DNA of 64,000 nucleotides from an uncultured Gammaproteobacteria bacterium (GTDB taxonomy: Bacteria; Pseudomonadota; Gammaproteobacteria; CAKMZV01), in contig CAKMZV010000003.1 of NCBI GenBank assembly GCA_929200535.1, positions 49,237 through 113,236 of the forward strand, written 5' to 3'. Below, piece by piece: positions 2,178 through 51,498 of the stretch. The position numbers and the translations under genes are program-made. Each line of letters starts with the position of its first letter. The first letter of the stretch is position 1. The notes under the pieces are model-generated. The model had not been told where the DNA came from. It was given only the letters and a program-made list of their open reading frames with translations, and made no database searches.

Positions 2178-2271
2178 GTACTCAAATCCTGTGCTGATTT
2201 TTTGCAGACTTCCATACTATAAATATTTCCGACTATTTCCGATCTGCAAAATATTTTTCATAGTACCTTAA

Positions 2272-2421
2272 CCTTATACCAATGATAGCCCAAAAATGTA
2301 CTGCCATTATCAAAACCTTTACAACAACAATGGGATAAAGCATACAACATATGTTTATACGGAATATGACATTGGTTTATCCAAAGGACGAAATATTACT
2401 GTGAGTTATGTTAAACTATAG
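2272..2421 (+). pseudogene. Possible 3' remnant of a beta-barrel or surface protein gene (in repeat copy A)
   Basis: One frame reads about 49 codons to a TAG stop, with alternating polar/aromatic residues (TTYVYTEYDIGLSKGRNITV) like the last strands of an outer-membrane barrel. There is no start codon or upstream domain. The same piece occurs in copy B, where the tail differs because the repeat ends inside it. The assignment rests only on residue pattern. Confidence 0.3.
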
Positions 2422-5256: not shown

Positions 5257-5284
5257 TCTTAATGAATATAAGCCCCCCTAAATT

Positions 5285-6570
5285 ATGTCGTATTTTTCAC
5301 TGCTAATATTAATTACTAGTCATGTTATGTGCTGGTGGCTCATTGGCGGAAGACAAAAATTACAACATAGTCCAGTCAAAATCAGCACCTTACTTAGTGG
5401 AATACACACTATCCCACACTATATTATTTGTACAATTTCCCCAGAAAATTCTTGGCTATACCCCTCTCTTGGTAATAAATATATCATTTATTTGATAGAG
5501 TTTGGAATTCTGTATTCTTTAGGGTTATTTATACAAGCGCTCTGTATAAGTACCGCTAGCAAAATAAAAATGCCAATAGCTACTAAATTAACTATAGAGC
5601 CTCATTATCCTTTTAGAAAAGCCGCATTACTGCTATTTACAGTTTATATATCAATACTATTGGTATATTTTAATAAAATTGGTGGGTTGCAATACTACCT
5701 TACTCATTTTAATAACCGAGATGAGTTGCGAGCTGGCCTTGGGATACTAGATATGTGTAAATTTCCTGTCGCATATTTAACTATATTATTTTTAGTAGCT
5801 TCCTCCCTAAATCTTCGTCTAACCTTTTTTTTCTTATTGTAATCTTTATGGCAATGATTGAAATGCTATTCGGTGGACGCAGAAATCCAATCCAATTTTT
5901 GTTATTTGGGTTAATAGGCTTATTAATGGTTGATAAAAATAGACAACTATTTTCACCAAGCAGTATAGTTATTACACTTCTCTCCATATCAATTTTTATT
6001 GGTTTGTACTCCTTTAGAGCATTACATGTATCTCAATCCGAAGTAGATATTGATATCTTGACGTATGTACTGAATATTAGCTACAATGATATCTATATCT
6101 TTATAATATCTCATTTTTCTAATAATGATTTTTGGTATGGTTCTATATATCTAGATATTTTTTATAAAATTTTCTCTTACTTTAATGGTTCAACAGGTCC
6201 ATCGCTAGACGAAGGGCTTTATATATATAATATCTATAGAGGAAATTTCATTGAGCCACCCATGATCTTGGAGCAAATATATCAAAATTCATTCCCACCT
6301 AGGACTTTTGGTAATGGTTATATAAACTTTGGAATCGCAGGAGTATTAATATTTTTTTCTATCAAAGGTACGCTAACTGGTCTAGCTTATAAAATCATGA
6401 CTAAATCTAACTATAATCCTATTTTTATGTATATTTACTTAATCATGATTTTTTCTTTTCAATTAAGTAATTTAAAATTATTTGAATTTATGACTATTTG
6501 TAGTGCATTAATACTCCTATCAATACCATTAAGATTAATTAAAAAACGGCAAACTACCACCTATAGATAG
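5285..6570 (+). pseudogene. wzy: Wzy-like repeat-unit polymerase, split by a frameshift at a T8 tract
   Basis: Two adjacent hydrophobic ORFs, 5285-5842 (185 residues) and 5848-6570 (240 residues), in different frames. Both are membrane proteins, and together they have the length (about 428 residues) and hydropathy of an oligosaccharide repeat-unit polymerase. The frame changes at a run of eight T at 5825-5832. One extra T would fuse the frames, reading TFFFLIVIFMAMIEMLFGG without a stop. It sits between the double-LicD gene and a GT4 gene, as expected for wzy. It may be a phase-variable OFF state, a real mutation or a sequencing error. Confidence 0.75.
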
Positions 6571-7984: not shown

Positions 7985-8701
7985 ATGAATTTATTAGATA
8001 GCGGAATTATCGGAAATGGAATGATTGCCTCTGAAATAAAAAAAAGTTGGCAAAATCCCGCAAATTATGTCATATTTGCATCTGGAGTATCAGATTCATT
8101 ATGTACCGACTCTAGCCAATTTGCAAGAGAAAAAAACCTCTTATCACAGATAATTGAACAGTTAAATGATGATAGAATACTAGTATACTTTAGTACTTGT
8201 AGTGTTTTTGATGCCTCTAAAATCAAAATATCGCAGTATATACAGCATAAATTAGCTATGGAGTCTTTAGTAAAGAAATGTGAATCCTATCAAATATTTC
8301 GATTACCTCAAATAATTGGTATTAGTAATTCCAAAAAAACCTTAGTTAGCTATTTCTATGAGGCAATCACGAATACCCGAAAACTCATTATACAACGCAA
8401 TGCTATAAGAAATCTTCTTGATGTCACAGATGTTGTTAGTTTAACTTCAGCTATATGCGACAGTAAAAAATTTATTAATTCTACGCTTAATATTGCAAGC
8501 ACTCGATACGATTCAGTAATTCGAATTGTGGAAATTTTGGAAAAATTGATCGGTCAAAAAGCGTTAACAAAATATATTGATGGTGGAAGTGCTTATTTTA
8601 TCGATACTAAAATTGTGGAAGAATTTAATAAAAATCTTGGAATTGTATTTGATGCTCAATACTTACCTAGGGTCATTCAAAAATATTACGGTTCATGTTA
8701 A
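7985..8701 (+). CDS. Short NAD(P)-binding SDR-like protein next to sugar amidotransferase genes
   Basis: 238 residues, shorter than typical extended SDR sugar enzymes. The N-terminus SGIIGNGMIASEI resembles a degenerate Rossmann glycine motif, and YFSTCSVFD and FRLPQIIG resemble SDR core strands. The YxxxK pair may be YIQHK. It lies 1 bp before the wbuX-like gene, which suggests translational coupling and a role in the same amino-sugar modification, perhaps as a reductase or epimerase. It could also be a structural relic without catalysis. Confidence 0.6.
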   Translation: MNLLDSGIIGNGMIASEIKKSWQNPANYVIFASGVSDSLCTDSSQFAREKNLLSQIIEQLNDDRILVYFSTCSVFDASKIKISQYIQHKLAMESLVKKCESYQIFRLPQIIGISNSKKTLVSYFYEAITNTRKLIIQRNAIRNLLDVTDVVSLTSAICDSKKFINSTLNIASTRYDSVIRIVEILEKLIGQKALTKYIDGGSAYFIDTKIVEEFNKNLGIVFDAQYLPRVIQKYYGSC

Positions 8702-8702
8702 T

Positions 8703-9842
8703 ATGAATTTAAAAAAAAAAATATGTATTCGCTGTGTGATGGATTACAGAGATTCAAAAATTACTTTTGATGAAAATGGTATTTGTGATCATTGTCAAAA
8801 TTTTGATAATAACATTAAACCTAATTGGCACACGGATCAAAAAGGAGATTTAGAATTAAAACAAATAACTACCAAAATAAAGCAAGAGGGCATTAACAAA
8901 GATTTTGACTGTATTATTGGCTTAAGTGGCGGGCTGGATAGTTCGTATACTGCTTATATTGCGAAAGAGATTATGGGTCTAAGACCATTATTGCTGCATG
9001 TTGATGCAGGATGGAATACTGATCAAGCAGTAAGTAATATTGAAAAATTAGTTAATGGATTAGAGTTAGAGCTCTATACAGAAGTAATAAATTGGAAAGA
9101 AATGCAAGACTTGCAAGTAGCATTTTTAAAATCACAAATACCCGACCAGGACATTCCACAAGATACTGCGTTTTTTTCAACACTCTATAAATTTGCAAAA
9201 CAACATGGCATAAAATATGTTTTAACTGGTGGCAACTATTCAACAGAATGTTGTCGAGAACCTGATGAGTGGGGGGCATTCCCTGGTATAGATAAAACAT
9301 TAATTAATAATATACATAAAAATTTTGGCTCACAAAAACTAAAAACTTTTCCAATTATAGATACCTTAGTTTATAAAATATTCTATCATAGAATTTTAGG
9401 TATGAAAGTCTTTAAACCTTTGAATTATGTTCCCTTTATCAAGAAAGATGCTGAAATTTTATTAAATGAAAAATATGGTTGGAAACCATTTCAACACAAA
9501 CATCATGAATCTCGATTTACTCGCTTCTATGAAGATTATTGGATGCCGAGAAAATTTGGATATGAAAAACGGCGTGCACATTTTTCAAGCTTAATTATGA
9601 CTGAACAAATGACCAGAGAGAGTGCGATAGAACGATTAAAAACTCCAGAAATGGATGATCAGTTTATGAAATTAGAATTTGAATTTGTTGCTAATAAACT
9701 CAATCTTTCAGTGGCTGAACTTCAAGAGATATTTGATGGCAAAAATAAAAACTTTCATGATTATAAAAACAAATATAAAATTTTTCATTTTGGAGGAAAG
9801 ATTTTAAATTTTCTAGGCTTGGAGCGTAGACAATACCGATGA
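8703..9842 (+). CDS. wbuX: N-acetyl sugar amidotransferase (WbuX/WbpG family)
   Basis: PP-loop ATP pyrophosphatase that installs an acetamidino group on an N-acetyl sugar nucleotide using ammonia from the partner HisH/HisF-like pair. Two Cys pairs near the start (CIRC and CDHC) look like a zinc site, and SGGLDSSY is the PP-loop. I start at 8703 rather than 8577: this gives 379 residues, the usual family length, removes an overlap with the upstream gene, and begins MNLKKKICIRC. The codons right after the start form a run of eleven A, a candidate slippage site. It overlaps the next gene by 4 bp. Confidence 0.88.
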   Translation: MNLKKKICIRCVMDYRDSKITFDENGICDHCQNFDNNIKPNWHTDQKGDLELKQITTKIKQEGINKDFDCIIGLSGGLDSSYTAYIAKEIMGLRPLLLHVDAGWNTDQAVSNIEKLVNGLELELYTEVINWKEMQDLQVAFLKSQIPDQDIPQDTAFFSTLYKFAKQHGIKYVLTGGNYSTECCREPDEWGAFPGIDKTLINNIHKNFGSQKLKTFPIIDTLVYKIFYHRILGMKVFKPLNYVPFIKKDAEILLNEKYGWKPFQHKHHESRFTRFYEDYWMPRKFGYEKRRAHFSSLIMTEQMTRESAIERLKTPEMDDQFMKLEFEFVANKLNLSVAELQEIFDGKNKNFHDYKNKYKIFHFGGKILNFLGLERRQYR

Positions 9843-10462
9843 TTACGATTATTGATTACGGTTTAGGCAATATTCAGGCATTTTTAAATATCTATAAAGA
9901 GTTGCACGTACCTGCACAAGTTGCTAGGAACAAGGATGACTTAGAAGGTGCTAGCAAGTTGATTTTACCTGGCGTTGGGCATTTTGACTATGCAATGCAG
10001 AAGTTTAACACTTCTGGCATGCGAGAAGAGATTGAAAGGCTTGTACTAAAGAATAAAGTTACTACACTGGGTATTTGCGTGGGTATGCAAATGATGGCAG
10101 ATTTTAGTGAAGAAGGCGTTGAAACTGGATTAGGCTGGATTAAAGGGACTATCAAGAATCTCAAAGCAATTTTAAAAAATAAAGATGAACACAATTTACC
10201 ACTCCCTCATATGGGATGGAATAAAGTAACATCAAATCATAAACGCTTATTTAATAACCTTAACTCTAATGATTTAGAATTTTACTTTTTACATTCGTAT
10301 TACTTTGATTGTACTTCTAAAAAAAATTATATTGCGAATACGAGATATGGTTCAAATTTTTGTTGTGCTGTAAATAGTGAAAATATCTTTGGTGTACAAT
10401 TTCACCCAGAAAAAAGTCATCATTTTGGTGTTCAATTGCTTAAAAATTTTTCAGAATTATAG
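9839..10462 (+). CDS. wbuY: HisH-like glutamine amidotransferase subunit (WbuY)
   Basis: Class I glutaminase of 207 residues. The nucleophile Cys lies in LGICVGMQMM and the His/Glu pair in VQFHPEKS; the family GVGHFDYAM segment is also present. In sugar-amidination cassettes this subunit supplies ammonia through its HisF-like partner to the PP-loop enzyme upstream, instead of acting in histidine synthesis. Position directly between wbuX and wbuZ homologues, with no other his genes, supports this role. Confidence 0.9.
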   Translation: MITIIDYGLGNIQAFLNIYKELHVPAQVARNKDDLEGASKLILPGVGHFDYAMQKFNTSGMREEIERLVLKNKVTTLGICVGMQMMADFSEEGVETGLGWIKGTIKNLKAILKNKDEHNLPLPHMGWNKVTSNHKRLFNNLNSNDLEFYFLHSYYFDCTSKKNYIANTRYGSNFCCAVNSENIFGVQFHPEKSHHFGVQLLKNFSEL

Positions 10463-10466
10463 ATAT

Positions 10467-11237
10467 ATGCTAAGAGCAAGAGTGACGCCATGTTTATTGG
10501 TACAAGATGGCGGATTAGTAAAGACTACTAAGTTTCAAGACGCTAAATATATCGGAGATCCAATTAATGCAGTAAGAATTTTCAATGAGAAAAAAGCAGA
10601 TGAACTAATTGTTTTAGATATACATGCTAGTGCAAATAACGCAGAACCAGATTATAAGATGATTAAACATCTTGCCAAAGAATGTCGCATGCCATTATGC
10701 TATGGAGGTGGTATTAAAACTCTATCGCATGTTGAAAAAATTATCGCCTTAGGAGTAGAAAAGGTTGCTTTAAGCTCTATTGTGCTTGAGCAGCCTAATC
10801 TCATTATCGAAATCGCTAATAAGGTTGGGCGGCAAAGTGTTGTTGTGGTTTTAGATATTAAGAAAAAAGCGTTATCTAATAGTTACACCATTTGGACACT
10901 AAACGGAAAACACAACACGAAGAAAAACGTAATTGATATTATACAAAAAGTCCAAAATTTAGGTATCGGTGAAATTATTTTAAATTTCATTGATTTTGAT
11001 GGTACTGAATCTGGCTATCCTATTAAAGTCATTCAGCAACTAAAGAGCTACATCCAAGTCCCTCTAACTATATTAGGAGGAGCTAAATCTCTTGAAGATA
11101 TGGGTAGTGCAATAAAACAGTGTGGATTAATGGGTGTTGCTGCAGGTAGCTTATTTGTTTTTAAAGGGAAGTATCGTGCAGTCTTGATTAATTACCCTAA
11201 CCAGCAACAAAAAGAAAAATTCATATATGGAAAATAA
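10467..11237 (+). CDS. wbuZ: HisF-like cyclase subunit (WbuZ)
   Basis: TIM-barrel protein of 256 residues beginning MLRARVTPCLLVQDGGLVKT, which is the HisF-type start. The ATG at 10467 is 4 bp after the upstream stop; the ORF-track start at 10377 lies inside wbuY in another frame and is rejected. Phosphate-binding glycines appear in YGGGIKTL and LGGAKSLEDM. It partners the HisH-like protein to channel ammonia. Its 3' end overlaps fnlA by 11 bp, so the amidination and FucNAc genes are coupled. Confidence 0.9.
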   Translation: MLRARVTPCLLVQDGGLVKTTKFQDAKYIGDPINAVRIFNEKKADELIVLDIHASANNAEPDYKMIKHLAKECRMPLCYGGGIKTLSHVEKIIALGVEKVALSSIVLEQPNLIIEIANKVGRQSVVVVLDIKKKALSNSYTIWTLNGKHNTKKNVIDIIQKVQNLGIGEIILNFIDFDGTESGYPIKVIQQLKSYIQVPLTILGGAKSLEDMGSAIKQCGLMGVAAGSLFVFKGKYRAVLINYPNQQQKEKFIYGK

Positions 11238-12270
11238 CGTTTTTAAAAATAAAACTTTATTAATCACTGGTGGTACTGGGTCTTTTGGCAATGCTGTATT
11301 AAAACGCTTTCTTAATACAGATATAACTCAAATACGTATCTTTAGTCGTGATGAAAAGAAGCAAGACGATATGCGTCGCAAATATGCTGATAATCGCCTC
11401 CAATTTTTTATTGGTGATGTAAGAGACTATGAGTCTATAATAAATGCCATCAGAGGGGTTGATTATGTTTTTCATTCAGCGGCTTTAAAACAAGTACCAT
11501 CATGTGAATTCCATCCAATTGAAGCTGTAAAAACAAATATATTGGGAACAGAAAATGTATTAACTGCAGCTATTAATACTCAGGTAAAACGAGTGGTTTG
11601 TTTAAGCACAGATAAAGCAGTTTATCCAATAAATGCCATGGGGATATCAAAAGCGATGATGGAAAAAATTGTAGTTGCAAAAGCACGGCAAGGTGGAAAA
11701 CAGACAGTAATATGTGGAACTCGCTATGGCAATGTTATGGCATCTCGAGGCTCTGTCATTCCTCTTTTTTTAGAGTTAATATGTCAAAACAAACCCTTGA
11801 CCTTAACAGATCCATATATGACGCGTTTTATGATGACCTTGGAGGACGCTGTAAATTTAGTTTTATTTGCTTTTGAAAATGGAAAGGGCGGGGATATTTT
11901 TGTACAAAAAGCTCCCGCCGCAACCATTAAAATCTTAGCACAAGCTTTATGCGAAATCATGGATAAACGAAATTATCCAAACCAAATCATAGGTACTAGG
12001 CACGGAGAAAAAAAGTATGAGTCCCTCTTATCAAGAGAAGAGATGACATACGCCAAGGATATGGGAGAATACTATAAAATCCCTCCTGATTTAAGAGATT
12101 TAAATTACTCTAAATATATTGATTCAGGAGAAGAAAGTATTACTAATTCTAATGAATATAATTCTGATAATACCAGACAATTAAATATTGAAGAAATGAA
12201 GCTTTTACTGAATAAATTAAATTTTATCAAGGCAGCTAAAAAAGGTGAATTTCTTGATCCTGAAAGCTAA
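11227..12270 (+). CDS. fnlA: UDP-GlcNAc 4,6-dehydratase/5-epimerase (FnlA/CapE/WbjB)
   Basis: First enzyme of UDP-N-acetyl-L-fucosamine synthesis. It is an extended SDR of 347 residues with the Rossmann motif TGGTGSFG near residue 14 and the catalytic region LSTDKAVYPINAMGISK, where Met replaces the usual Tyr as in this dehydratase family. GTRHGEKKYESL is a family-typical C-terminal segment. It heads a three-gene fnlABC run with spacings of 3-4 bp. Confidence 0.92.
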   Translation: MENNVFKNKTLLITGGTGSFGNAVLKRFLNTDITQIRIFSRDEKKQDDMRRKYADNRLQFFIGDVRDYESIINAIRGVDYVFHSAALKQVPSCEFHPIEAVKTNILGTENVLTAAINTQVKRVVCLSTDKAVYPINAMGISKAMMEKIVVAKARQGGKQTVICGTRYGNVMASRGSVIPLFLELICQNKPLTLTDPYMTRFMMTLEDAVNLVLFAFENGKGGDIFVQKAPAATIKILAQALCEIMDKRNYPNQIIGTRHGEKKYESLLSREEMTYAKDMGEYYKIPPDLRDLNYSKYIDSGEESITNSNEYNSDNTRQLNIEEMKLLLNKLNFIKAAKKGEFLDPES

Positions 12271-12273
12271 AAA

Positions 12274-13377
12274 ATGAAAATATTAGTCACAGGTGCTGAA
12301 GGATTTATTGGCAAAAATTTAATTATTAAACTCAATGAGTTGGGGATAGAGTTCAATCAATATACTCGTTCTAACTCCCCACAAGATTTGCCATATTTAC
12401 TTGAAAACACTAAATGCGTGGTACATTTGGCTGGCGAAAATAGACCTTTAAAAAAGGAAAAATTTGATATTGTAAATGCTGGATTAACCGAATCACTTTG
12501 TGAAGCGATTCGTATAAAAGAACGCAAAATTCCTATTATTTTTTCTTCTTCCTCGCAAGCAATACTTGACAATGCTTATGGGGAAAGTAAATTAAAAGCC
12601 GAAACGATTATACGAAAGCTTAGTGCACAAATTAAAAACCAAGTATATATTTACCGTTTACCAGGGGTATTTGGCAAGTGGTGTAAGCCAAATTATAATT
12701 CTGTTGTCGCTACATTTTGCCATAATATTAGCCACAATCTACCCATTAAAGTAAATGATACTTCTGTAGAATTAGAGTTAGTCTATATAGATGATGTCAT
12801 CTCAGAATTTATTTCTATTATTCAAGGAGAGAAGAAGCATTGTAAAAATTTAACTCTTCAACCAAGTTATAAAATAACTCTTGGTGATTTAGCCAATCAA
12901 ATAAAACACTTTCGCGAAAGCAGAACTTCCCTTGTATCAGAAAAAGTGGGGACAGGATTAATTAGAAAACTTTACTCAACCTATCTTAGTTATTTGCCTC
13001 CAGAGCAATTTTCTTATCCTATATTAACTCACAGGGATGCGAGGGGAATGTTTGCGGAAGTTTTAAAAACAAAAGATAGTGGGCAATTTTCATTTTTCAC
13101 TGCAGATGTGGGGGTAACTCGAGGAGGACATTATCACCATACTAAAACTGAAAAGTTTTTAGTTTTACAAGGGACTGTACAGTTTAATTTTAAGCATATT
13201 GTTTCAGGAAAAACATATAAAATCATCACTTCATCAACTAAATTGGAAATTGTTGAAACTCCCCCAGGTTGGTCTCATAGTATTACTAATATTAGCACTC
13301 AAGAAATAATTGTTATGCTTTGGGCTAATGAAATATTTGATCCAAATACTCCTGACACAATTTCCTACAAGATATAA
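12274..13377 (+). CDS. fnlB: Bifunctional epimerase/reductase with C-terminal cupin (FnlB/CapF/WbjC)
   Basis: Second enzyme of UDP-L-FucNAc synthesis, 367 residues. The N-terminal SDR domain starts with VTGAEGFIGKNL and has the short YGESK catalytic pair. The C-terminal cupin domain from about residue 245 contains GGHYHHTKTEKF, the metal-binding histidines expected for CapF. This SDR plus cupin order is diagnostic. It catalyses C3 epimerisation and then C4 reduction to the L-talo intermediate. Confidence 0.92.
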   Translation: MKILVTGAEGFIGKNLIIKLNELGIEFNQYTRSNSPQDLPYLLENTKCVVHLAGENRPLKKEKFDIVNAGLTESLCEAIRIKERKIPIIFSSSSQAILDNAYGESKLKAETIIRKLSAQIKNQVYIYRLPGVFGKWCKPNYNSVVATFCHNISHNLPIKVNDTSVELELVYIDDVISEFISIIQGEKKHCKNLTLQPSYKITLGDLANQIKHFRESRTSLVSEKVGTGLIRKLYSTYLSYLPPEQFSYPILTHRDARGMFAEVLKTKDSGQFSFFTADVGVTRGGHYHHTKTEKFLVLQGTVQFNFKHIVSGKTYKIITSSTKLEIVETPPGWSHSITNISTQEIIVMLWANEIFDPNTPDTISYKI

Positions 13378-21228: not shown

Positions 21229-21931
21229 ATGAAAATACTCCTCACAGGCTCAGCAGGCTTTATTGGTTTTCATCTAATTAATGGTTTAATAAAACGTGGT
21301 GATGACGTAATTGGCTTGGATTCAGTCAATGATTATTATGAGCAATCCCTTAAGTACGAACGTTTAGAACAACTGGGATTTACCCAATTTCAAATTAGTT
21401 ACAATTCACTTTGCCAATCAACAAAGCATTCTAATTACCGTTTTATTAAGCTCCAGTTAGAGGATAGAGAAAACCTTAATACGCTTTTTCAAACTGAAAA
21501 GTTTGATGCTGTTTGTAATCTTGCTGCTCAAGCGGGTGTTCGCTATTCTCTTGAAAATCCAATCGCTTATATGGATTCTAATATTGTTGACTTTATCAAT
21601 TTATTGGAAGCCTGTCGCCATTATGGCGTTAATAACTTAAGCTATGCCTCCAGTTCATCAGTTTATGGGCTGAATGAATCTTATCCTTTTTTCACTTCGG
21701 ATAACGTAAACCATCCTGTTAGCCTTTATGCTGCTTCAATAAGCTAATGGATTTTATCAATGCTATTGAAAATGCCTTAGGTATAGAGCTTGAAAAACAG
21801 ATGATGTACCACAAACCTATGCCAATGCTGATGATTTGATTTCTGATTTAGACTATAAGCCACAAACTTCTATCCAAATAGGCATTAATCACTTTATTGA
21901 TTGGTATAAGGGTTTTTATAAAGCAGAATAA
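21229..21931 (+). pseudogene. UDP-glucuronate 4-epimerase pseudogene with two internal deletions
   Basis: Near-identical over its first 170 codons to the intact epimerase at 50434-51498 ([17 protein letters not shown]). After LYAAS the middle third is missing and the frame ends, but the homologous 3' end continues from about 21744 (LMDFINAIENALG) to the TAA at 21931. A second deletion of 19 bp lies after CAGATG, bounded by a GATG repeat in the intact gene. Substitutions such as IVGF to IVDF and FSTS to FFTS add to the evidence for decay. Confidence 0.92.
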
Positions 21932-25213: not shown

Positions 25214-25525
25214 AAATATAGATGAGTGTAAAGTCTCTACCTTGTATAAGTTCAGAAACATATAAACAGTGTTACAATAGATAGTAGTCAGATTTTCCAT
25301 TGCTCTACTAAACAAAAAAAATCAAATTAAACTGTTTTTTTACTCCTACAAAGCTCTGCAACCCTTGAAGTTTGCAAAACCCTAAATCTATGGAAAAAAT
25401 CCCACTTCTGACTCAAAAAAAACTGATTATATCATTGCTTCATTGCTATATCCTTTTTATTGTCTCTTATAACAACAATTATTTTGTTGTTAAGACAACC
25501 TAAAAAATAAACACCTCTCAAACTT
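25214..25525. promoter_or_regulatory. 312 bp gap before the phosphonate genes, with an inverted repeat
   Basis: No gene is recognisable. A perfect 9 bp inverted repeat, TAACAACAA and TTGTTGTTA separated by 5 bases, lies at 25470-25492; an outer GTCT/AGAC pair flanks it. It is 34 bp upstream of the PEP mutase ATG. It is too A/T-rich and lacks the trailing U-run of a strong terminator, so it may be an operator or mRNA leader hairpin. The gap probably holds the promoter of the phosphonate genes. Confidence 0.4.
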
Positions 25526-26845
25526 ATGCAAAATAAAACCTCTCAAAAAATTGTTTATGTTGGTATGAGTGCCGATCTCATACACGAGGGACACATTAAT
25601 ATTCTTAACAAAGCTGCCTCTCTCGGAAAAGTTGTCGTAGGATTGCTTACAGATGAAGCTATTGCAAGCTACAAACGTGTTCCACATATGAATTTTGAAC
25701 AACGTAAAGTAATCATTAATAGTATCAAAGGGGTAGATCAAGTTGAAGCACAACACACCTTAGATTACACCGATAATCTAACTAAAATCAAACCAAACTA
25801 TGTCGTTCATGGTGATGATTGGAAAGAAGGTGTGCAAGCAACAACTCGCCAAAAAGTTATCGACACACTCCAACAATGGGGAGGTGAATTAATTGAAGTC
25901 GGTTATACTCCCGGCATTTCTTCGACTCAACTGCATCGCTCTATTAAAGAAATTGCCAGCACACCAGATGTGCGTCTCAAACGCCTACGGAGATTACTAC
26001 AGATTAAACCACTTATTCGAGTCAACGAAGTTCATAATGGATTGTCTGCTTTGATTACTGAAAAAACATCAGTGGATAAAGAAGATATGAAAACAGAATT
26101 TGATGCTATGTGGGCAAGTAGTCTAACCGACTCAACGGCTAAAGGAAAACCTGATATAGAAGCAGTAGATGTTTCTTCAAGGCTATCCTCTGTCAATGAT
26201 ATATTTGAGGTCACGACAAAGCCAATGCTGTTTGATGCCGACACAGGTGGAAAAGTTGAGCATCTTGCCTTCACGATTCGTTCGCTTGAACGTCTTGGTG
26301 TCTCGGCTGCCGTGATAGAAGATAAAACAGGACTGAAAAAAAATTCACTCTTTGGCAATGATGTTGAGCAGCACCAAGCCACCATCGAAGAATTTCAAGC
26401 TAAAATACGCGTTGCCAAAGAAGCGCAAATTACTGATGATTTTATGCTTATTTCACGTATTGAAAGCCTCATTTTGGAAAAAGGAATGGAGGATGCGTTA
26501 GCACGAGCAAGGGCTTATATTGAAGCAGGTAGTGATGGTATTATGATTCATAGCAGGCAAAAATCACCTGAAGAAATATTTGAGTTTTGTAAACAATACC
26601 ACAGCAACCTACCAAAAACAGTTCCGTTAATGGTTGTGCCTTCCAGTTTTAACTCAGTCACCGAAGATGAATGGATTAATCAAGGCGTGCAAATTGTGGT
26701 ATATGCTAATCATATGCTCCGCTCAGCCTATCCAGCAATGTTAAATGTTGCACAATCCATACTACGCCATGGTCGTAGTGCCGAAGCGGATCCTAATTGT
26801 CTCCCTATTAAAGAGATATTGGAGCTTATTCCGGGTACAAAATAA
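25526..26845 (+). CDS. pepM: Cytidylyltransferase-phosphoenolpyruvate mutase fusion
   Basis: 439 residues, two domains. Residues 1-140 are a nucleotidyltransferase of the cytidylyltransferase superfamily with HEGH at 20-23 and ISST at 131-134, the PntC-like type that activates phosphonates with CMP. Residues about 225-439 are PEP mutase, with DADTGG at 237-242 and the diagnostic [10 protein letters not shown] at 265-274, which separates mutases from isocitrate-lyase-like hydrolases. It therefore makes phosphonopyruvate from PEP and probably CMP-activates a downstream phosphonate. The decarboxylase gene starts at the base after its stop codon. Confidence 0.94.
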
Positions 26846-27976
26846 ATGATTTGTCCTGATTTTTTTCATCGAACACTTAAAGACAACGGGGTTGATTTTT
26901 TTACGGGCGTGCCTGACTCCTTACTCAAAGAGTTTGGTAATTTTGTCTCCTCAATGCTCCCTACTACTCAGCATACCATTGCAGCAAACGAAGGAGCTGC
27001 TGTTGGGTTAGCAATTGGACATCACCTTGCTACTGGGAAAATTCCTTTAGTTTATCTTCAAAATTCAGGGTTAGGCAATACAATTAATCCCCTTGTTTCA
27101 CTGGCGGATCCTACCGTTTATGGCATTCCTCTATTGCTTCTCATTGGCTGGCGTGGAGAACCTGATATTCCAGATGAACCACAACATAAAAAACAAGGCC
27201 CCATCACCTTACCTACGCTGGACGCAATGGATATTAAATGGGCAACACTTCATAAGGACCTTTCATCCAAAGAAGTCATTTCAACCGTTGATACTGCTCT
27301 TCAACACTGCCGTCAACAACAAGCACCCTTTGCCTTAGTCGTGCATAAAAATACCTTTGAAAAATTCACTAAACCCAAACACACATCAGACTTAATTTTG
27401 CAACGTGAACAAGCAATTGCAACCATAATGAAATTTATCCAGCCTGATGATATTGTTGTCGCCACAACTGGGATGATTTCACGTGAGCTATATGAGCAAA
27501 GAGAAATGCAAAATCAATCTCATCAACAAGATTTTTTAGTCGTTGGGGGAATGGGTCATTGTAGTTCTATTGCCCTACGTATAGCTATGGAAAAACCTAA
27601 CCGAACAATCTATTGCCTTGATGGTGATGGTTCAATACTTATGCATATGGGCTCTTTAGCCGTTGCCGGCACCAGTGCTTGTAAAAATTTTAAACACATC
27701 GTACTTAATAATGGCGTACATGATTCAGTCGGAGGACAACCCACTGTGGGTCTGACTATTGATATGCCAAATATTGCCAAAAACTGCCACTATCGCCATA
27801 CTCACTCGGTTGAAACAAGCGAGCAACTTGAAAATACTCTACCTGATTTCATCAATCAATCAGGACCTTGCTTTTTACAAGTTTGTGTCAAACCTGGCAA
27901 TCGTGCTGACCTTGGCAGACCAACACAAACACCCCAAGAATGCAAAGTGCATTTTATGCAACACCTCTCCTCATAA
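26846..27976 (+). CDS. aepY: Phosphonopyruvate decarboxylase (copy B, complete)
   Basis: 376 residues. The N-terminal PYR domain begins DFFHRTLKDNGVDFFTGVPD and contains the TPP-activating glutamate in AANEGAAVG; the C-terminal domain has LDGDGSILMH and LNNGVHDS. The ATG follows the PEP mutase stop directly, so the two are translationally coupled. From 26928 on the DNA is identical to window bases 1 onward. Confidence 0.95.
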   Translation: MICPDFFHRTLKDNGVDFFTGVPDSLLKEFGNFVSSMLPTTQHTIAANEGAAVGLAIGHHLATGKIPLVYLQNSGLGNTINPLVSLADPTVYGIPLLLLIGWRGEPDIPDEPQHKKQGPITLPTLDAMDIKWATLHKDLSSKEVISTVDTALQHCRQQQAPFALVVHKNTFEKFTKPKHTSDLILQREQAIATIMKFIQPDDIVVATTGMISRELYEQREMQNQSHQQDFLVVGGMGHCSSIALRIAMEKPNRTIYCLDGDGSILMHMGSLAVAGTSACKNFKHIVLNNGVHDSVGGQPTVGLTIDMPNIAKNCHYRHTHSVETSEQLENTLPDFINQSGPCFLQVCVKPGNRADLGRPTQTPQECKVHFMQHLSS

Positions 27977-29343
27977 AACATCTATCTAATGAAACAACAA
28001 CTCTACATCAATCAAGGATTTGCAGCTTGGGATGGTATCCTAAAACAATATCAACCCCAAAAAACCCTACTTGTATGTGGAAAGCAATCCTATCGCTCCA
28101 TAGAAGCAATTGTACAACCCCTACTAACTCAACTATCAGGAAAAATAATTACTTTTAATGAGTTTGGTAAAAAGCCTTGTATTGAGGATATTTTCCGTGG
28201 CATCACCTTATGTCGAGAAGAGAACGTTGATTTAATTATTGCCATTGGGGGTGGCCATTGCATTGATACAGCAAAGGCCATTAATTTATTAAGCAAACAA
28301 CCTATTTCACTTAATAATGCCAATGATTTAGCAGAAAGCATTCGTGGCAACACGACATTAATCCCAACTGAATGCCCTCTAATTGTGATGCCCACCACAT
28401 GCGGATCAGGCTCTGAAGCCACACACTTTGCCGTCGTTTATATTGGCTCCGACAAATTCTCATTAGCCCACCCCAGCATCTTGGCTGATTGGGTAATTGC
28501 TGATAAATGTTTAGTCAACTCACTACCTCACTCAATCGCTGTATATACAGCCTTAGATGCTCTATGCCAAGCCATAGAATCCTACTGGTCAGTCGGTGCA
28601 ACACAAGAGAGTGAAGAGTACGCACTCAATGCCTTAAAAATCATTAGCCCGCATCTTCAAAACCAATTTACTATAAATGATCAATTTTTTACGGATATGG
28701 TACTCGCTGCAAACTATGCTGGTCGTGCCATTAATATTTCCAAAACAACTGCCCCACACGCCCTATCCTACTACTTAACCGATCAATTTGATGTCCCCCA
28801 TGGGATTGCCGTGGCACTAACTCTTGGAGCCGTAGCAACCTATACTGAAATCAATGCAGAAAATCACACTCAGAAAAAAATACAAACAATAAAGAATATA
28901 CTTAATTTTTCAGATGAATTTTCTCAGTCATGGTACGACTTTATTGCTTCACTTGATATTGCTTGCAAATTATCTGACTACAATCTGAAAGAAGAACACT
29001 TAGAAAAAATGGTGAACTCAGTTAATTTACAAAGACTTGCCAATCACCCAATTAATTTTGATACAAAACAACTAAAACAGGTGCTGAAATCACGCTATAT
29101 TTAAGTACTCAAATCCTGTGCTGATTTTTTGCAGACTTCCATACTATAAATATTTCCGACTATTTCCGATCTGCAAAATATTTTTCATAGTACCTTAACC
29201 TTATACCAATGATAGCCCAAAAATGTACTGCCATTATCAAAACCTTTACAACAACAATGGGATAAAGCATACAACATATGTTTATACGGAATATGACATT
29301 GGTTTATCCAAAGGACGAAATATTACTGTGAGTTATGTTAAAC
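26928..29343. repeat. Long perfect direct repeat, copy B
   Basis: Partner of window bases 1-2416 at an offset of exactly 26927 bp. It covers most of the decarboxylase, the whole reductase and 239 bp of non-coding DNA. Because copy A is cut by the window edge, homology may reach further left here, possibly into PEP mutase. Confidence 0.95.
27989..29104 (+). CDS. Phosphonoacetaldehyde reductase, iron-type alcohol dehydrogenase (copy B)
   Basis: 371 residues, same protein as 1062-2177. With pepM and the decarboxylase in an unbroken run, this copy sits in a complete three-gene pathway from PEP to 2-hydroxyethylphosphonate. The assignment of the aldehyde substrate rests on this context. It is followed by the barrel-like remnant and then the ABC flippase gene. 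Confidence 0.9.
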   Translation: MKQQLYINQGFAAWDGILKQYQPQKTLLVCGKQSYRSIEAIVQPLLTQLSGKIITFNEFGKKPCIEDIFRGITLCREENVDLIIAIGGGHCIDTAKAINLLSKQPISLNNANDLAESIRGNTTLIPTECPLIVMPTTCGSGSEATHFAVVYIGSDKFSLAHPSILADWVIADKCLVNSLPHSIAVYTALDALCQAIESYWSVGATQESEEYALNALKIISPHLQNQFTINDQFFTDMVLAANYAGRAINISKTTAPHALSYYLTDQFDVPHGIAVALTLGAVATYTEINAENHTQKKIQTIKNILNFSDEFSQSWYDFIASLDIACKLSDYNLKEEHLEKMVNSVNLQRLANHPINFDTKQLKQVLKSRYI

Positions 29344-29366
29344 CCTACACTCTATATATTAGATGA
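29199..29366 (+). pseudogene. Barrel-like remnant in repeat copy B, with chimeric 3' end
   Basis: Same coding relic as 2272-2421, but the repeat stops after VSYVK and the frame runs on through unrelated sequence (PYTLYIR) to TGA. This shows that at least one of the two repeat ends is a recombination junction inside a former gene. Confidence 0.3.
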
Positions 29367-29441
29367 TAATTTTAAATTTTGGAGAAATACTAAAATAGAG
29401 ATATTTTTGAATATTTTAGAAATAAATAATCTAAGAAAACA

Positions 29442-31145
29442 ATGTTAAAGCAATTGCATAAGTTACGGACTTTACTATCCCGAAAAGATAAGAAAATCTT
29501 AGTTTTTCTTTTAATTTTTTCCGTTTTTATTTCTTTAGTGGAAACGATAGGAATCTCCCTAATTATGCCGTTTGTCTCTATGGCAATTGATTTTACTATT
29601 ATTGAGAGAAATCAATACTTAAATCAATTTTTTGAACTATTGAATTTTGAAAGTCCAAGATATTTCGTCCTATCATTTGGACTATTTCTTGTGTTTTTCT
29701 ATAGCACCAGAGGACTCATTAACTTAATTTATATCTATTCTTTAAATCATTTTACTCATCGCAAATTCCATACCATTGCTACTCAATTGTTCGAGAAATA
29801 TATGAATCTACCCTATAAAAATTTTGTACAAAATAATAGTTCGCAATTCACCAAAACCATCACAATAGAAATTGCACATTTAACCTCTTTAATTAAATCA
29901 ATTTTATTAATGATTAGCGAGTTTTTTGTGACATTATTGCTATACATTTTAATGTTTTATGTTAACTATAAAGTCACACTAATATTAACTATCGTATTTA
30001 TCATAAATGGATTATTTTTGGTAAAAGCCATTTCAAAAAAAATTAAAAAATTGGGAGTAACTCGAGCATCAATGCAAACCGTTTTTCATGAAGTGATGAA
30101 TCGAAGTTTTGGAAATTTCAAATTTATTAAATTATCCGATTACGGAAAAAAAGCACATCAAGACTTCAGTGAATCCAGCCTAAGTTATGCTAACTCAATT
30201 ATAAAATCCGAAACATTGCAGCAATTTCCACGACTTTTTTTAGAAGCTTTAGCCTTTGGCATCATATGCTTGATTATCACTTATATTGTGTGGGAAGATG
30301 AAGATCATATAGCAAGCTTTTTATCAGTGATAGCCTTATTTGTGCTATCACTTTATCGACTAATGCCCTCGCTCAATCGTATTATCTCGAGCTACAATAT
30401 AGCTGTTTTTTACTACAAGTCATTGGATATTACTCACGCAGCCATGCTGCATGAAAATGAAAAATTAGGCAACGAAAAAATTACTTTTCAACATCATATT
30501 ACACTCAATAATGTTAGCTTTGAATACATTGAAAATAAACCTATTTTTAATGATGTAAATCTTCAAATAAACAAAGGGGAAAAAGTGGCTTTTATTGGCG
30601 AAAGCGGCGGAGGAAAATCAACCTTAGTTGATCTTATCATGGGATTACATACACCCAACCAAGGAAATATAAGCATTGATAATATCCCATTATGCCAAGA
30701 CAATATTAAATCATGGAGACATCAAATCGGATATATCCCCCAAAACATTTATTTATTTGATGGTACAGTGGCTGATAATATTGTTTTTGGCAGAGATTAT
30801 GATGAAAAAAAATTAATTAACGCGTTAGAAAAAGCAAATATATATGATTTTTTACAAACTCAAAATGGTATATCCACACAAGTTGGTGAAGGAGGAATTG
30901 TATTAAGCGGCGGACAAAAACAACGAGTTGCCATTGCAAGAGCTCTATACGACAATCCTGAAACGCTAGTCTTAGATGAAGCAACCAGTGCCCTTGATAG
31001 TGAAACAGAAGAAAAAATTATGGATGAAATATATAAGCTATATCAAGATAAAACACTAATTGTCATTGCTCATCGAATTAGCACTACAAAAAGGTGTGAT
31101 AAAACATACGTTTTAAAAAAAGGAAGACTCGTTTTGTCTCAATAA
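29442..31145 (+). CDS. pglK: ABC-type lipid-linked oligosaccharide flippase (PglK-like)
   Basis: 567 residues, a half-transporter with about six transmembrane helices in residues 20-320 and an ATPase domain from about 345. Walker A GESGGGKST, Q-loop IGYIPQNIYLF, signature LSGGQKQRVAIARAL and Walker B TLVLDEATSAL are intact. Length, the VFISLVETIGISLIMPF opening and the SLYRLMPSLNRIISSY segment recall Campylobacter PglK, which flips undecaprenyl-PP glycans. A decayed second copy of its 3' end lies at 35183-35335, also upstream of a GT25 gene. Confidence 0.9.
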   Translation: MLKQLHKLRTLLSRKDKKILVFLLIFSVFISLVETIGISLIMPFVSMAIDFTIIERNQYLNQFFELLNFESPRYFVLSFGLFLVFFYSTRGLINLIYIYSLNHFTHRKFHTIATQLFEKYMNLPYKNFVQNNSSQFTKTITIEIAHLTSLIKSILLMISEFFVTLLLYILMFYVNYKVTLILTIVFIINGLFLVKAISKKIKKLGVTRASMQTVFHEVMNRSFGNFKFIKLSDYGKKAHQDFSESSLSYANSIIKSETLQQFPRLFLEALAFGIICLIITYIVWEDEDHIASFLSVIALFVLSLYRLMPSLNRIISSYNIAVFYYKSLDITHAAMLHENEKLGNEKITFQHHITLNNVSFEYIENKPIFNDVNLQINKGEKVAFIGESGGGKSTLVDLIMGLHTPNQGNISIDNIPLCQDNIKSWRHQIGYIPQNIYLFDGTVADNIVFGRDYDEKKLINALEKANIYDFLQTQNGISTQVGEGGIVLSGGQKQRVAIARALYDNPETLVLDEATSALDSETEEKIMDEIYKLYQDKTLIVIAHRISTTKRCDKTYVLKKGRLVLSQ

Positions 31146-31250
31146 CCACGAACGTTAAAAATTATACATAGGCATAAAAATGTTCTTAAACTACTTAACT
31201 TATACAAAAAAATTAACTTAATGCACCTGACTTTAATATAAAGTGTCAGT

Positions 31251-32024
31251 ATGATATCCATGCAAAAAAAGACACCCATCTATTTAATTTCCTTAGCACA
31301 AGATAGTCAAAGACGCAAAGAGCTCAAACAGAAATTCCCTAAGAGCTATGCTCAATTTATTCAGATAGAAGCCACCGATGGAAGACAATTAACGGCGACA
31401 GAGTATTATGAGAAGGCGATCAAATTCTTCAGAAAATCTAACAGAATAATGTTACCTACAGAATTGGGGTGTACCTTAAGCCACATTCATGCTCTTGAGG
31501 AATTTATTAAAACCAATTCTCAATACGCCCTTATATTAGAAGATGATGTCGAAGGTGAAGATAAAGATATAATAAAAATCTTAAATCTAATAAAAAATTT
31601 TGAACCCAAATCTCTATTAATTTGCGGTAGAATAGCTAATAAAAACTATCCATTTGGTAAAAAAACAAGTATTGAAGGACTGTATGAAATCTCCCATTTA
31701 ACCCACCAATTTATCCATAGAGCCTGGAGTTATGTCGTCACTAAAAAATCGGCAAATGAGATTATAGAATACCATAAACATAATTTAACTATTGCTGATT
31801 GGTGGAATGATATTTTTAAAGATACAGATACAAAAATTTACTATACTAATATCCTCTCACATCCTATATGTCGAGCAAAGAGCCATATGGAAACAGACAG
31901 AGCTCAATTTAATCAATCTCTATGGGAAAAAATTACATCTATAAAGAGTATTAAACATAAATTAAAAAAGGAAATTGTGAAAGTAATTATCCAATTAAAA
32001 GGCTATAAAAAAATAAAAGATTAA
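31251..32024 (+). CDS. GT25-family glycosyltransferase, paralogue 1
   Basis: 257 residues with the GT25 opening PIYLISLAQDSQRRKELK, GCTLSHIHALEEF and the metal-binding ALILEDDVEG. GT25 enzymes include LPS beta-galactosyltransferases; donor and acceptor here are unknown. It follows the ABC flippase gene by about 105 bp and is a clear paralogue of 35413-36198, sharing ADWWNDIFKDTD-like and GYKKI ends. ATG 31251 is used, but MQKKTPIYLIS at 31260 is an equally good start and fits the paralogue better. Confidence 0.88.
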   Translation: MISMQKKTPIYLISLAQDSQRRKELKQKFPKSYAQFIQIEATDGRQLTATEYYEKAIKFFRKSNRIMLPTELGCTLSHIHALEEFIKTNSQYALILEDDVEGEDKDIIKILNLIKNFEPKSLLICGRIANKNYPFGKKTSIEGLYEISHLTHQFIHRAWSYVVTKKSANEIIEYHKHNLTIADWWNDIFKDTDTKIYYTNILSHPICRAKSHMETDRAQFNQSLWEKITSIKSIKHKLKKEIVKVIIQLKGYKKIKD

Positions 32025-32514
32025 TATTTATTTCAACCCAGTAAAACCACATATAAAATATCTATCTTTCTTTAGTCATTTGATTGAACTTCAAAGTTTT
32101 AATGGTTAAATTTATTATACATTTCAAAATAAATATAAAATAAATCCTTTACATTTGAATTATCCATTCCTGCTCTCATCAATTTGCTAAAGAAAAAAAG
32201 CTCTTGAGATTATATTTGATGAATAATATTTACTTAGGGTTATTGAAAAATATCACGATTAGTGCTAATAAATATAATTCCGATAATGTTAAAAAAACGA
32301 AGTTTTTATTTAGGATTTTAACTAGCCAAAACCCTAAAATTTATTCAAAAAACTGATATAATTCATCACTTATCTACTATGACAATGGTTGTAAATAAAC
32401 GACCTTATATTTTCAGACAATCTAATCATATTAAAGCAGTATAATATAGTATACGAATACTTTGAAAACATCCGTTATTAATTCCTGCAAAAAATATAAT
32501 ACAAAGCTTCTCCC
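32025..32514. other. 490 bp A/T-rich gap without an assignable gene
   Basis: A 45-codon ORF (32219-32356, MNNIYLGLLKN...) exists but has no recognisable relative or Shine-Dalgarno. Given the decayed genes elsewhere in this block, the gap may hold eroded coding DNA. Nothing firmer is visible. Confidence 0.4.
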
Positions 32515-33759
32515 TTGAACAAAATAAAAAAAACACCCCAAGAGGTAATTAAATTCATCAAAATTGTACTCCATAGCTTATTACATATCATACGCTTATT
32601 TTCTTTCATAACACCAAGGAACCGAAATTTTTGGCTCTTAGGTAGCTTTGGCGGTTCGTTTAATGATAATGCCAAGTATTTGTTTATTTATATACATAAT
32701 AACCATCCAGAAATAAAAATTGCTTGGATTTCAAACAATAAAAAAACAGTTTCATTTCTTAGGGAGAAAAGTTTTTCCGCTTACTACAAATGGAGTATTC
32801 AAGGTATTTACTATAGCCTTGTAGCTGGTGTTTATATTTATAATGCCTATATTAATGACATTAATAGTTGGACTTATGGGCGTGCTGTTAAAGTAAATTT
32901 GTGGCACGGTTTTTTTGCTAAAAAAATAGAATTTGATATCAAAAAAGGCGTGCTTGCCCCAGTCTTTAATAATTCATTAAAAAGTCGACTCCTTTATCCC
33001 AAGGAGTATATAAAGCCAGACTTTGTTTTATCTGCTTCTGAGAAAATGTCAGAATTATTTTCATCAGCCTTTAGAATTAATTCCGCTCAATGCTTAAATT
33101 TTGGCTATACGCGCAACAATATCTTACAATTACCTAAAAATGATATAAAAACATTTATCAAAAACAATGAGCCGCCTAACACGCTTAATATATTAGAAAA
33201 ATTAACACATTATAAAAAAATTTATGTCTATATGCCTACATGGCGAGATAACCATGCAGATTTTATAGAAAACTCAGGAATATGTTTTGAAACACTTAAT
33301 GATTTAATGATTGAAAACAATCATTTCTTCATCTTCAAAGTACATAATAATACACACATAGAGATTGATTTAAGCCAGTATCCTAATATTTTTTTATTTG
33401 ATAACAAATCTGACATCTATCCATTACTACCTTTTACCGATGTCCTTATTACTGATTATTCTTCAATTTGCCTTGACTATAAAGTAATGAATAAGAACGT
33501 TATTTTTTATTGTTTTGATGAAGCTTCCTATTTAGAAGAAAGGGAAATGTACTTTGACTATCAAGATGTTCTTAAGGGCGAAACTGTTGCAAGAACTTTT
33601 AACGAACTATTACAGTGTATCCAAAAGGATGCAAGTTACCAACAACCAAAAACACCAAATACACTTATGCAACAACTCATCCCAACTGGAAAAAATTCAA
33701 GCAAAAATTCAAGCAAAAAATTAGTTGATTTTATAAAAAAACATGTGAAAATAAAATGA
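32515..33759 (+). CDS. CDP-glycerol glycerophosphotransferase family protein (TagB/TagF-like)
   Basis: 414 residues. WLLGSFGGSFNDNAKYLF, VNLWHGFFAKKIEFD, YMPTWRDNH, FKVHNN and ITDYSSICLDY are the successive motifs of the Glyphos_transf family, whose GT-B fold transfers glycerol- or ribitol-phosphate from CDP donors. No CTP:glycerol-3-phosphate cytidylyltransferase is in the window, so the donor could instead be a CMP-phosphonate from the PepM fusion; that is inference. The start is TTG 32515, directly after an in-frame stop at 32497, and no nearby upstream ATG exists. The C-terminus has an SSKNSSKK duplication. Confidence 0.85.
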   Translation: MNKIKKTPQEVIKFIKIVLHSLLHIIRLFSFITPRNRNFWLLGSFGGSFNDNAKYLFIYIHNNHPEIKIAWISNNKKTVSFLREKSFSAYYKWSIQGIYYSLVAGVYIYNAYINDINSWTYGRAVKVNLWHGFFAKKIEFDIKKGVLAPVFNNSLKSRLLYPKEYIKPDFVLSASEKMSELFSSAFRINSAQCLNFGYTRNNILQLPKNDIKTFIKNNEPPNTLNILEKLTHYKKIYVYMPTWRDNHADFIENSGICFETLNDLMIENNHFFIFKVHNNTHIEIDLSQYPNIFLFDNKSDIYPLLPFTDVLITDYSSICLDYKVMNKNVIFYCFDEASYLEEREMYFDYQDVLKGETVARTFNELLQCIQKDASYQQPKTPNTLMQQLIPTGKNSSKNSSKKLVDFIKKHVKIK

Positions 33760-34076
33760 AAGTGTCGCCAGTAAATGCTGCCAACTTATGCCCTACTTTA
33801 GTGCGATTCAAAATAAGTTTATTAGTGGTCGCTTATAACATATAAGAGTATATTTCCCAATGCATTTATTCGTGATATAATTTCATCACAATTACTTTTA
33901 GTATTGCTTACAGTTTCAAATTATCTGGCTACAACCTTAAAAGGGAATAATTTACGACGATTAGCTAATCACCCACTTTAATTTTTGAATGTGTAATAGT
34001 AGTATAGTTTCTGTAACATATTCTCCATTAGCAACACTAAGCATTTTCTTAGATTATTTCTATTTTTATATAATTA
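33760..34076. other. 317 bp gap before licD, holding a reductase relic
   Basis: Apart from the 33895-33981 relic described separately, the gap shows no gene. Its upstream part may be more eroded reductase sequence (a GGTCG-like stretch near 33815), but I cannot align it with confidence. The last 95 bp probably carry the licD promoter. Confidence 0.4.
33895..33981 (+). pseudogene. Decayed 3' remnant of a third phosphonoacetaldehyde reductase copy
   Basis: The bases TATTGCTTACAG then CAAATTATCT, GGCTACAACCTTAAAA and GCTAATCACCCA align in order with the end of the reductase gene (ATTGCTTGCAAATTATCT, GACTACAATCTGAAAG, GCCAATCACCCA), with small indels. The relic ends in a stop after NHPL. It lies 95 bp upstream of licD and shows that the reductase region was duplicated more than once, at different times. 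Confidence 0.75.
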
Positions 34077-34931
34077 ATGGACGCAGATACCAAATCAAAT
34101 TATGTGGGTAAAACCTTGAGACAACATCAAATAGATTGTGTCTCAGTGCTAAAAGCAGCTCACGATTTTTTTCAAAATAACGATTATCCATACTTTATTG
34201 GTGCTGGAACTTTATTAGGAGCGGTTCGTCATGGAGGCTTCATTCCTTGGGACGACGATATCGATATTTTCATGCTAATTGATGATTTTAATCGCCTACT
34301 CCACTCTACTAAAATGAATAAAAATATAGCCTCTGACTACGACATAAAAATTTCCCAATCACCTATAGATCCCTTTTTCTTAGGCATTTCGAGTACAAAT
34401 CCTAATAGTAGTGGAGTAATTGATATATATCCACTTGAGCGTTATCGTAAAAAAATTCCATTATTGCGTACGATTTATCAAAAAACTATATCGGTTGCAG
34501 TTTTACTTAATTTCCACGGAATCTTACCTGACCTAATCAATCAATCGAAACCTTGGTTTATAAAGAATAATCAATACCAAGGCAGAGTACATAAAGCTGG
34601 AGACCCTTCGACAATAATTCGTTATCTTAAAGCTACTCGATTATTATGGAGAACTACCTTGCCTATTGTCATTTCCACATTTAGATTATTACGAAAACTA
34701 TCTGTATCAAAAGATGGTCCTTGGGTATCAAATCACTCTCAATCCCGTTTTACATTTTTATACATAAAATATGAAGATCTTGTTCCTGCTAAAATAATAA
34801 ATTTTGAAAAAATTAATGTCTATGCACCCAATAAACCCAAAAAATGGTTGGAATCTAATTATGGAAAAAATTATATGCAACCCCCTCCTCTCAAAAAGCA
34901 AATACCTCATCATTTTGATTTTCAAGAATGA
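34077..34931 (+). CDS. LicD-family phosphotransferase
   Basis: 284 residues, single LicD domain: GTLLG at 44-48 and PWDDDID at 57-63, with the usual C-terminal KYEDL-type and KKWLESNYGKNYM segments. LicD enzymes move phosphocholine-like groups from CDP donors onto glycans. Close to the PepM-cytidylyltransferase genes, it is the best candidate for putting 2-hydroxyethylphosphonate onto the glycan, though phosphocholine or another phospho-alcohol cannot be excluded. Confidence 0.88.
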   Translation: MDADTKSNYVGKTLRQHQIDCVSVLKAAHDFFQNNDYPYFIGAGTLLGAVRHGGFIPWDDDIDIFMLIDDFNRLLHSTKMNKNIASDYDIKISQSPIDPFFLGISSTNPNSSGVIDIYPLERYRKKIPLLRTIYQKTISVAVLLNFHGILPDLINQSKPWFIKNNQYQGRVHKAGDPSTIIRYLKATRLLWRTTLPIVISTFRLLRKLSVSKDGPWVSNHSQSRFTFLYIKYEDLVPAKIINFEKINVYAPNKPKKWLESNYGKNYMQPPPLKKQIPHHFDFQE

Positions 34932-50433: not shown

Positions 50434-51498
50434 ATGAAAATATTAGTCACAGGCTCAGCAGGCTTTATTGGTTTTCATCTAATTAATAGCTTAATAAGCC
50501 GTGGTGATGAAGTGATTGGGTTGGATTCGATTAATGATTATTATGATCAATCCCTTAAGTATGGGCGCTTAAAGCAAACGGGGATAAATCGAGAGAAAAT
50601 TAGTTACAATTCATTTTGCCAATCACAAAAACATACTAATTATCGCTTTATTCAACTTCAGTTAGAAGATAGAGAAAATCTTAATACGCTTTTTCAAGCT
50701 GAAAAATTTGATGCTGTTTGTAATCTCGCTGCTCAAGCGGGTGTTCGCTATTCTCTTGAAAATCCAATCGCTTATGTGGATTCGAATATTGTTGGCTTTA
50801 TTAATTTATTGGAAGCCTGTCGCCATTACAACGTTAATAATTTAAGCTATGCCTCCAGTTCCTCAGTTTATGGGCTGAATGAATCTTATCCTTTTTCCAC
50901 GTCGGATAATGTGGATCATCCCATTAGTCTGTATGCAGCTTCAAAAAAAGCCAATGAACTAATGGCTCATACCTATTCACATCTTTATAATATCGCCACT
51001 ACGGGATTACGATTTTTTACCGTCTATGGTCCTTGGGGGCGCCCCGATATGGCATATTTTTCATTTACTAAAGCCGCTTTAGAGGGAAAGCCTATTGAGG
51101 TTTTTAATCATGGGAAAATGCTTAGAGATTTTACATATATTGATGATATTGTTGAAGGCGTTGTGCGAGTGATTGATAACCCCGCCAAAGCAGAGCCTAA
51201 TTGGTCAGGTAAAGATCCAACCCCCTCCACTTCCTCGGCACCTTATAAAATTTATAATATTGGCAATAATAATCCAGTTAAGCTAATGGATTTTATCACA
51301 GCTATTGAAAATGCTTTAGGTATAGAGCTTGAAAAACAGATGTTGCCAATGCAGCCAGGTGATGTACCACAAACCTATGCCAATGTTGATGATTTAGTTT
51401 CTGATTTAGACTATAAGCCTCAAACTTCAATCCAAGTAGGCATTAATCACTTTGTTGATTGGTATAAGGATTTTTATGCTCACTCCCCTTCCCTTTAG
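50434..51498 (+). CDS. UDP-glucuronate 4-epimerase (extended SDR), intact copy
   Basis: 354 residues: [35 protein letters not shown] (YxxxK) and [14 protein letters not shown], which is the segment typical of UDP-glucuronate/galacturonate epimerases. It supplies a uronic acid donor. It has a long Ser/Thr/Pro insertion ([10 protein letters not shown]) common in this family. The pseudogene at 21229 is a paralogue of it. Confidence 0.88.

Follow-up and report, generated by a model that had tools for sequence, protein, structure and literature searches.

RESULTS

The fusion gene and its module

The gene at 25526–26845 on the + strand of the window, the whole 64,000-nucleotide stretch of contig C3 analysed here, belongs to the second of two copies of a three-gene module and encodes a single chain of 439 aa. 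Domain profile scans, a structure match and an alignment placed a Fom1-type cytidylyltransferase (residues 1–145) ahead of a PEP mutase (residues 150–439) in this chain. PF01467 matched residues 15–136 with 47 bits (cut-off 21), and the TIGR02320 PEP mutase model matched residues 154–438 with 404 bits (cut-off 320). PF01467 and PEP_mutase were the only Pfam matches, and the domain scan found no PF12804, the MobA/LicC-like NTP transferase family of PntC-type enzymes, on this mutase. With PF01467 N-terminal to the PEP mutase in the same chain, the protein has the architecture of a Fom1-type fusion. The motifs HEGH (residues 20–23), ISST (131–134) and EDKxxxxxNS (265–274, the PEP mutase motif) were all present. 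The best solved-structure match of the N-terminal domain was 5x3d (199 bits, against 36 bits for TagD), deposited as phosphoenolpyruvate phosphomutase, which we take to be the cytidylyltransferase domain of Fom1, and 86 of 137 residues (63%) were identical between the two. Furthermore, an alignment of 76 relatives has 58 positions with at least 95% conservation, of which the window's domain matched 56, Fom1 52 and TagD 16, and this domain is thus nearer to the Fom1 cytidylyltransferase than to TagD or other cytidylyltransferases. Identity as TagD or an HldE-like adenylyltransferase was ruled out by the 36-bit and sub-cut-off matches against the 199 bits for Fom1, and a PntC assignment by the absence of PF12804, so that the label "PntC-type" used in the earlier note is replaced here by Fom1-type.

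The product of Fom1 is CMP-2-hydroxyethylphosphonate (CMP-HEP) (PMC6697681). The assignment of the window's domain to the Fom1 type, with the predicted conversion of 2-HEP and CTP to CMP-HEP, is thus well supported by sequence comparison, and a domain of Fom1 rather than PntC type strengthens the inference of HEP. The fusion architecture itself is known, published and widespread, PF01467 fusions making up 23.6% of the PEP mutases in a published survey (Rice 2019, PMC6697681), and the novelty implied by the earlier note was in this respect overstated.

The phosphonopyruvate decarboxylase gene of copy 2 (26846–27976, + strand; TIGR03297, 475 bits, cut-off 312) begins immediately after the stop codon of the fusion, without a gap, and 12 bases separate its end from the gene of an Fe-ADH family protein (27989–29104, + strand; domain scans), a probable phosphonoacetaldehyde reductase. 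This protein scored 161 bits, below the 424-bit cut-off of the one phosphonate Fe-ADH family model, so its substrate is assigned from its position in the module. A missing metal site was ruled out: the ligand positions are D190, Q194, H257 and H271, three of the four usual ligands are kept, and most of the family likewise shows the H-to-Q change at 194 (49 of 61). A decarboxylase and an Fe-ADH protein adjoining the mutase are the genes of a HEP pathway, provided that the reductase acts on the predicted substrate. No AEP transaminase occurred among the ORFs around the module, and the genome's class-V aminotransferase most like an AEP transaminase, the only class-V hit scanned individually, scored 169 bits against the PhnW-AepZ cut-off of 361.

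Candidate transferases and other polysaccharide genes

Downstream of copy 2, and on the strand of the module, lie genes for a PglK-type ABC oligosaccharide flippase (29442–31145, + strand; NF050066, 646 bits, below the cut-off of 1000), a glycosyltransferase of family 25 (GT25; 31251–32024, + strand; domain scan), a TagF-like (PF04464) transferase (32515–33759, + strand; Glyphos_transf, 171 bits) and a LicD-family transferase (34077–34931, + strand; PF04991, 90 bits). The last two, both candidate users of CMP-HEP, are in the same strand run within less than 6 kb of the module. The TagF-like protein carries the motifs NLWHG and TDYSS and scored 106 bits against the TarF equivalog model (cut-off 550), short of an equivalog-level match, and the LicD protein belongs to PF04991 with its conserved acidic motif intact (D59, D61 and D63). 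ORF and domain scans thus bore out the coordinates and gene calls of the earlier note for 25526–34931, namely cytidylyltransferase and PEP mutase motifs in one chain, a decarboxylase and an iron-type reductase without an aminotransferase, and a TagB/TagF-like protein followed by LicD. The flippase and GT25 genes between the reductase and the TagF-like gene were missing from it.

The genome holds one PF04464 gene and four PF04991 matches, a double-LicD protein being counted twice. A genome-wide PF01467 search found no TagD-type glycerol-3-phosphate cytidylyltransferase; besides the two fusions it gave four hits, whose sizes fit CoaD, NadD, HldE and RibF, an assignment made by length rather than by domain scan. 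The earlier note had argued for a phosphonate donor from a TagF-like protein lacking a glycerol-phosphate cytidylyltransferase partner. The genome-wide search likewise found no such partner, but the argument is weakened because another contig may supply a different CDP donor. There, on C5 (L113, 6410–11255), one chain combines a LicC-like nucleotidyltransferase with a HAD-IIA phosphatase, and the genes after it encode a CDP-alcohol phosphatidyltransferase, a LicD protein and a protein resembling a flippase. This set is probably a separate CDP-activated decoration system, and a second CDP donor, made by the LicC-HAD fusion, may exist in the same genome. Within the window, 8577–13377 holds WbuX, HisH and AglZ/HisF2-type genes (NCBIfam names), then epimerase genes that resemble FnlA/FnlB, as judged by sequence only. 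Together they suggest that the same polysaccharide includes a FucNAm-like acetamidino-sugar.

Duplication of the module

Contig C3 carries two copies of the three-gene module, 26,927 bp apart. The genome, that of a gammaproteobacterium, is a draft of 50 contigs, and the repeat junctions are known from the assembly alone. The repeat units are window 1–2416 and 25443–29343, corresponding to C3:47752–51652 and C3:74679–78579. The repeat is 3,901 bp long with six mismatches, all within its first 23 bases, and the remaining 3,878 bp are identical. In copy 1, which was missing from the earlier note, the fusion gene (C3:47835–49151) lies just before the window and is followed by the decarboxylase gene (3–1049, + strand, its 5′ end before the window) and, by repeat comparison, the Fe-ADH reductase gene (1062–2177, + strand), where this copy ends.

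A wzz-like chain-length gene directly precedes copy 1, and comparison with it revealed an orphan 22-codon fragment of the 3′ end of such a gene ahead of copy 2 (25442–25507, + strand), with 86% protein identity to the end of the wzz-like gene and the remainder of the gene missing. Judged from this comparison, the fragment is the scar of a copying event, and since the wzz tail stands before copy 2, the source of that copy was most likely a locus with the layout of copy 1. The near-identity of the units is most likely explained by recent copying or by later homogenisation of the copies. Part of an intact NAD epimerase gene (50434–51498) is repeated 29 kb upstream of it as a truncated version (21229–21747, 172 aa), a further sign of rearrangement in the region.

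Each copy is followed by its own flippase and transferases. Downstream of copy 1 these are a Wzx-type (MOP) flippase (2471–3703, + strand; a weak NCBIfam match of 34 bits) and a tandem double-LicD protein, a single chain holding two LicD active-site motifs (3841–5256, + strand). Polysaccharide genes thus flank the module in both copies, which supports the surface-glycan setting proposed in the earlier note. The arrangement is consistent with two HEP-decorated polymers or with two stages of one polymer.

Comparison with related and control loci

One scan of genome contigs with the fusion as query returned 80 loci at 60–67% identity, the record titles of which name Bacteroidota, Gammaproteobacteria, Sulfurimonas, Spirochaetia, candidate phyla, archaeal MAGs and others. 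A callable fusion frame was found in 76 relatives, and the two genes downstream were present in 74, of which 65, from many phyla, have fusion, decarboxylase and reductase consecutively. As a control, about 770 genomes belonging to the window's own phylum and class were searched for PEP-mutase loci with the TIGR02320 model. Neighbours were called with a profile built for each gene, and counts were limited to loci with a decarboxylase. In the control, the reductase accompanied 6/7 Fom1-type domains and 0/30 other mutases (Fisher p = 3e-6), and the transaminase 1/7 and 25/30, respectively (p = 0.001), p-values that ignore shared ancestry and are hence inflated. The 30 other mutases were nearly all PntC-type, and one control transaminase that was scored reached 387 bits, passing the curated AEP-transaminase cut-off of 361. 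Pooling control and relatives gave 73/80 against 0/30 for the reductase and 1/80 against 25/30 for an AEP-transaminase-like gene, though the relatives were selected by the fusion query, so that only the phylum and class control is an unbiased draw, and one locus (L197, whose sequence is also that of L013 among the relatives) is counted in both sets.

In two loci, L149 (4590–9021) and L150 (4497–8900), the mutase is PntC-type, but a separate Fom1-type domain and a reductase are present and there is no transaminase. In L149 the PEP mutase is followed by PF12804, which is also found on a PntC-type example (L193). This pair is a stronger argument than the counts. An exception is L191, where a divergent Fom1-type fusion is paired with a cytidylyltransferase–transaminase fusion protein; the latter (5111–6409, 433 aa) joins a cytidylyltransferase domain to an AEP-transaminase-like domain and is encoded near LicD and TagF.

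Within five genes of the fusion in the 76 relatives, LicD occurred at 29 loci, TagF-like genes at 24 and both at none (p = 5e-7, uncorrected for shared ancestry, which may account for part of the exclusion, the LicD loci being mostly from Bacteroidales). The first gene after the module was LicD in 22 relatives and TagF-like in 14. Near the control PntC-type mutases, the counts were 0/34 for LicD and 1/34 for TagF-like genes. Among 24 further genes following the module, Pfam matches revealed no third recurrent transferase family; two CDP-alcohol phosphatidyltransferases were seen. These distributions suggest that LicD and TagF-like proteins are alternative families of CMP-HEP transferase with the same job. 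Against this background the window is unusual, copy 2 being followed by both kinds of gene and copy 1 by a tandem double LicD.

DISCUSSION

Considering these results, we propose the following scenario. The PEP mutase would convert PEP to phosphonopyruvate, from which the decarboxylase would form phosphonoacetaldehyde. Reduction of the latter by the Fe-ADH protein would yield 2-HEP, which the mutase's N-terminal domain would join to CMP with the use of CTP, giving CMP-HEP. LicD-family and/or TagF-like enzymes beside each copy may then transfer HEP to sugars of the surface polysaccharide made by the surrounding genes. We put the probability that the module makes CMP-HEP and that the adjoining transferases place HEP on a surface polysaccharide at about 0.8. 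Within this scenario, the formation of CMP-HEP is well supported by the gene content, and we infer the attachment to the glycan, the identity of the transferase and each reaction in this organism. The CMP activation proposed in the earlier note agrees with the closeness of the domain to Fom1, and its choice of HEP over AEP with the Fom1-type domain, the reductase, the lack of a transaminase and the comparative split.

CMP-HEP may be used by only one of the two transferases, the other being unrelated to the phosphonate and working with a common CDP donor (CDP-glycerol or CDP-choline, for example). We consider this an even chance: the mutual exclusion of LicD and TagF-like genes among the relatives indicates that one transferase is seemingly enough, and the LicC-HAD fusion on C5, with its CDP-alcohol transferase and LicD, adds to the case, but TagD was not found in the genome, and both genes share the strand run close to the module. 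This possibility is compatible with HEP transfer to the polysaccharide and only narrows it. In the other direction, the TagF-like enzymes beside Fom1-type modules might be a class of phosphonate transferases that use CMP-HEP and possibly polymerise HEP into a teichoic-acid-like C–P backbone, with LicD as the single-unit alternative. The free hydroxyl of 2-HEP would allow polymerisation, but we regard this extension as doubtful.

A product of the kind made by PntC systems, CMP-AEP or a glycan bearing AEP, with the transaminase encoded elsewhere, appears improbable. The best-studied bacterial surface glycans carry AEP as their phosphonate (PMC6697681), and most sampled PEP mutases of the phylum and class are PntC-type, but the locus is without a transaminase, the best-looking candidate in the genome falls far below the PhnW cut-offs, and Fom1-type domains accompany the reductase and not the transaminase. 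Fosfomycin biosynthesis also has the fusion and the CMP-HEP step (PMC6697681); however, the ORFs surrounding the two copies showed none of the later genes of fosfomycin type (radical SAM methyltransferase, epoxidase), and the neighbours are flippases, glycosyltransferases, nucleotide-sugar genes, LicD and TagF, making a fosfomycin-like small molecule in place of glycan decoration very improbable. Processing of HEP before or after transfer, by an MpnS-type enzyme to methylphosphonate or by HepD to hydroxymethylphosphonate, is likewise very unlikely; methylphosphonate and 2-HEP esters occur on marine polysaccharides (PMC9381506), but none of the window's genes stood out as MpnS- or HepD-like.

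Compared with known systems, the window's protein shares with Fom1 of the fosfomycin pathway the order of cytidylyltransferase and PEP mutase in one chain and the closely similar PF01467 domain, but Fom1 sits with fosfomycin genes, whereas the window's fusion, whose substrate is predicted, lies among polysaccharide genes with LicD and TagF. PntC systems share its logic, in that a PEP mutase is fused to a cytidylyltransferase, a CMP-phosphonate is the donor and LicD-type transfer has been proposed. They differ in using the PF12804 family, in forming CMP-AEP, in the reversed domain order of the scanned examples and in having a transaminase instead of the reductase. Polysaccharides carrying 2-HEP, the phosphonoglycans of Glycomyces and Stackebrandtia, were reportedly described by Yu et al. 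in 2014 (cited in PMC8931226); these Actinobacteria have the same expected end product, a likeness by product and not by gene content. The TagF-like capsule polymerases of Gram-negative bacteria (PMC8262930) make glycerol-phosphate polymers and, as in the window, belong to surface-polymer loci, but they need CDP-glycerol, for which the window's genome yielded no TagD-type enzyme.

The steps that place phosphonates on bacterial surfaces have been called enigmatic (PMC6697681). Among open-licence papers, we found no study linking LicD or TagF to PepM clusters and no paper naming CMP-HEP other than PMC6697681. The new parts of the present analysis are a comparative rule, the exclusion between LicD and TagF-like genes and the duplication of the module. 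The split between Fom1-type domains, which appear with the reductase, and PntC-type mutases, which appear with the transaminase, provides a simple rule by which the type of cytidylyltransferase would predict HEP or AEP, and two transferase families can thus be named as candidates for the use of CMP-HEP.
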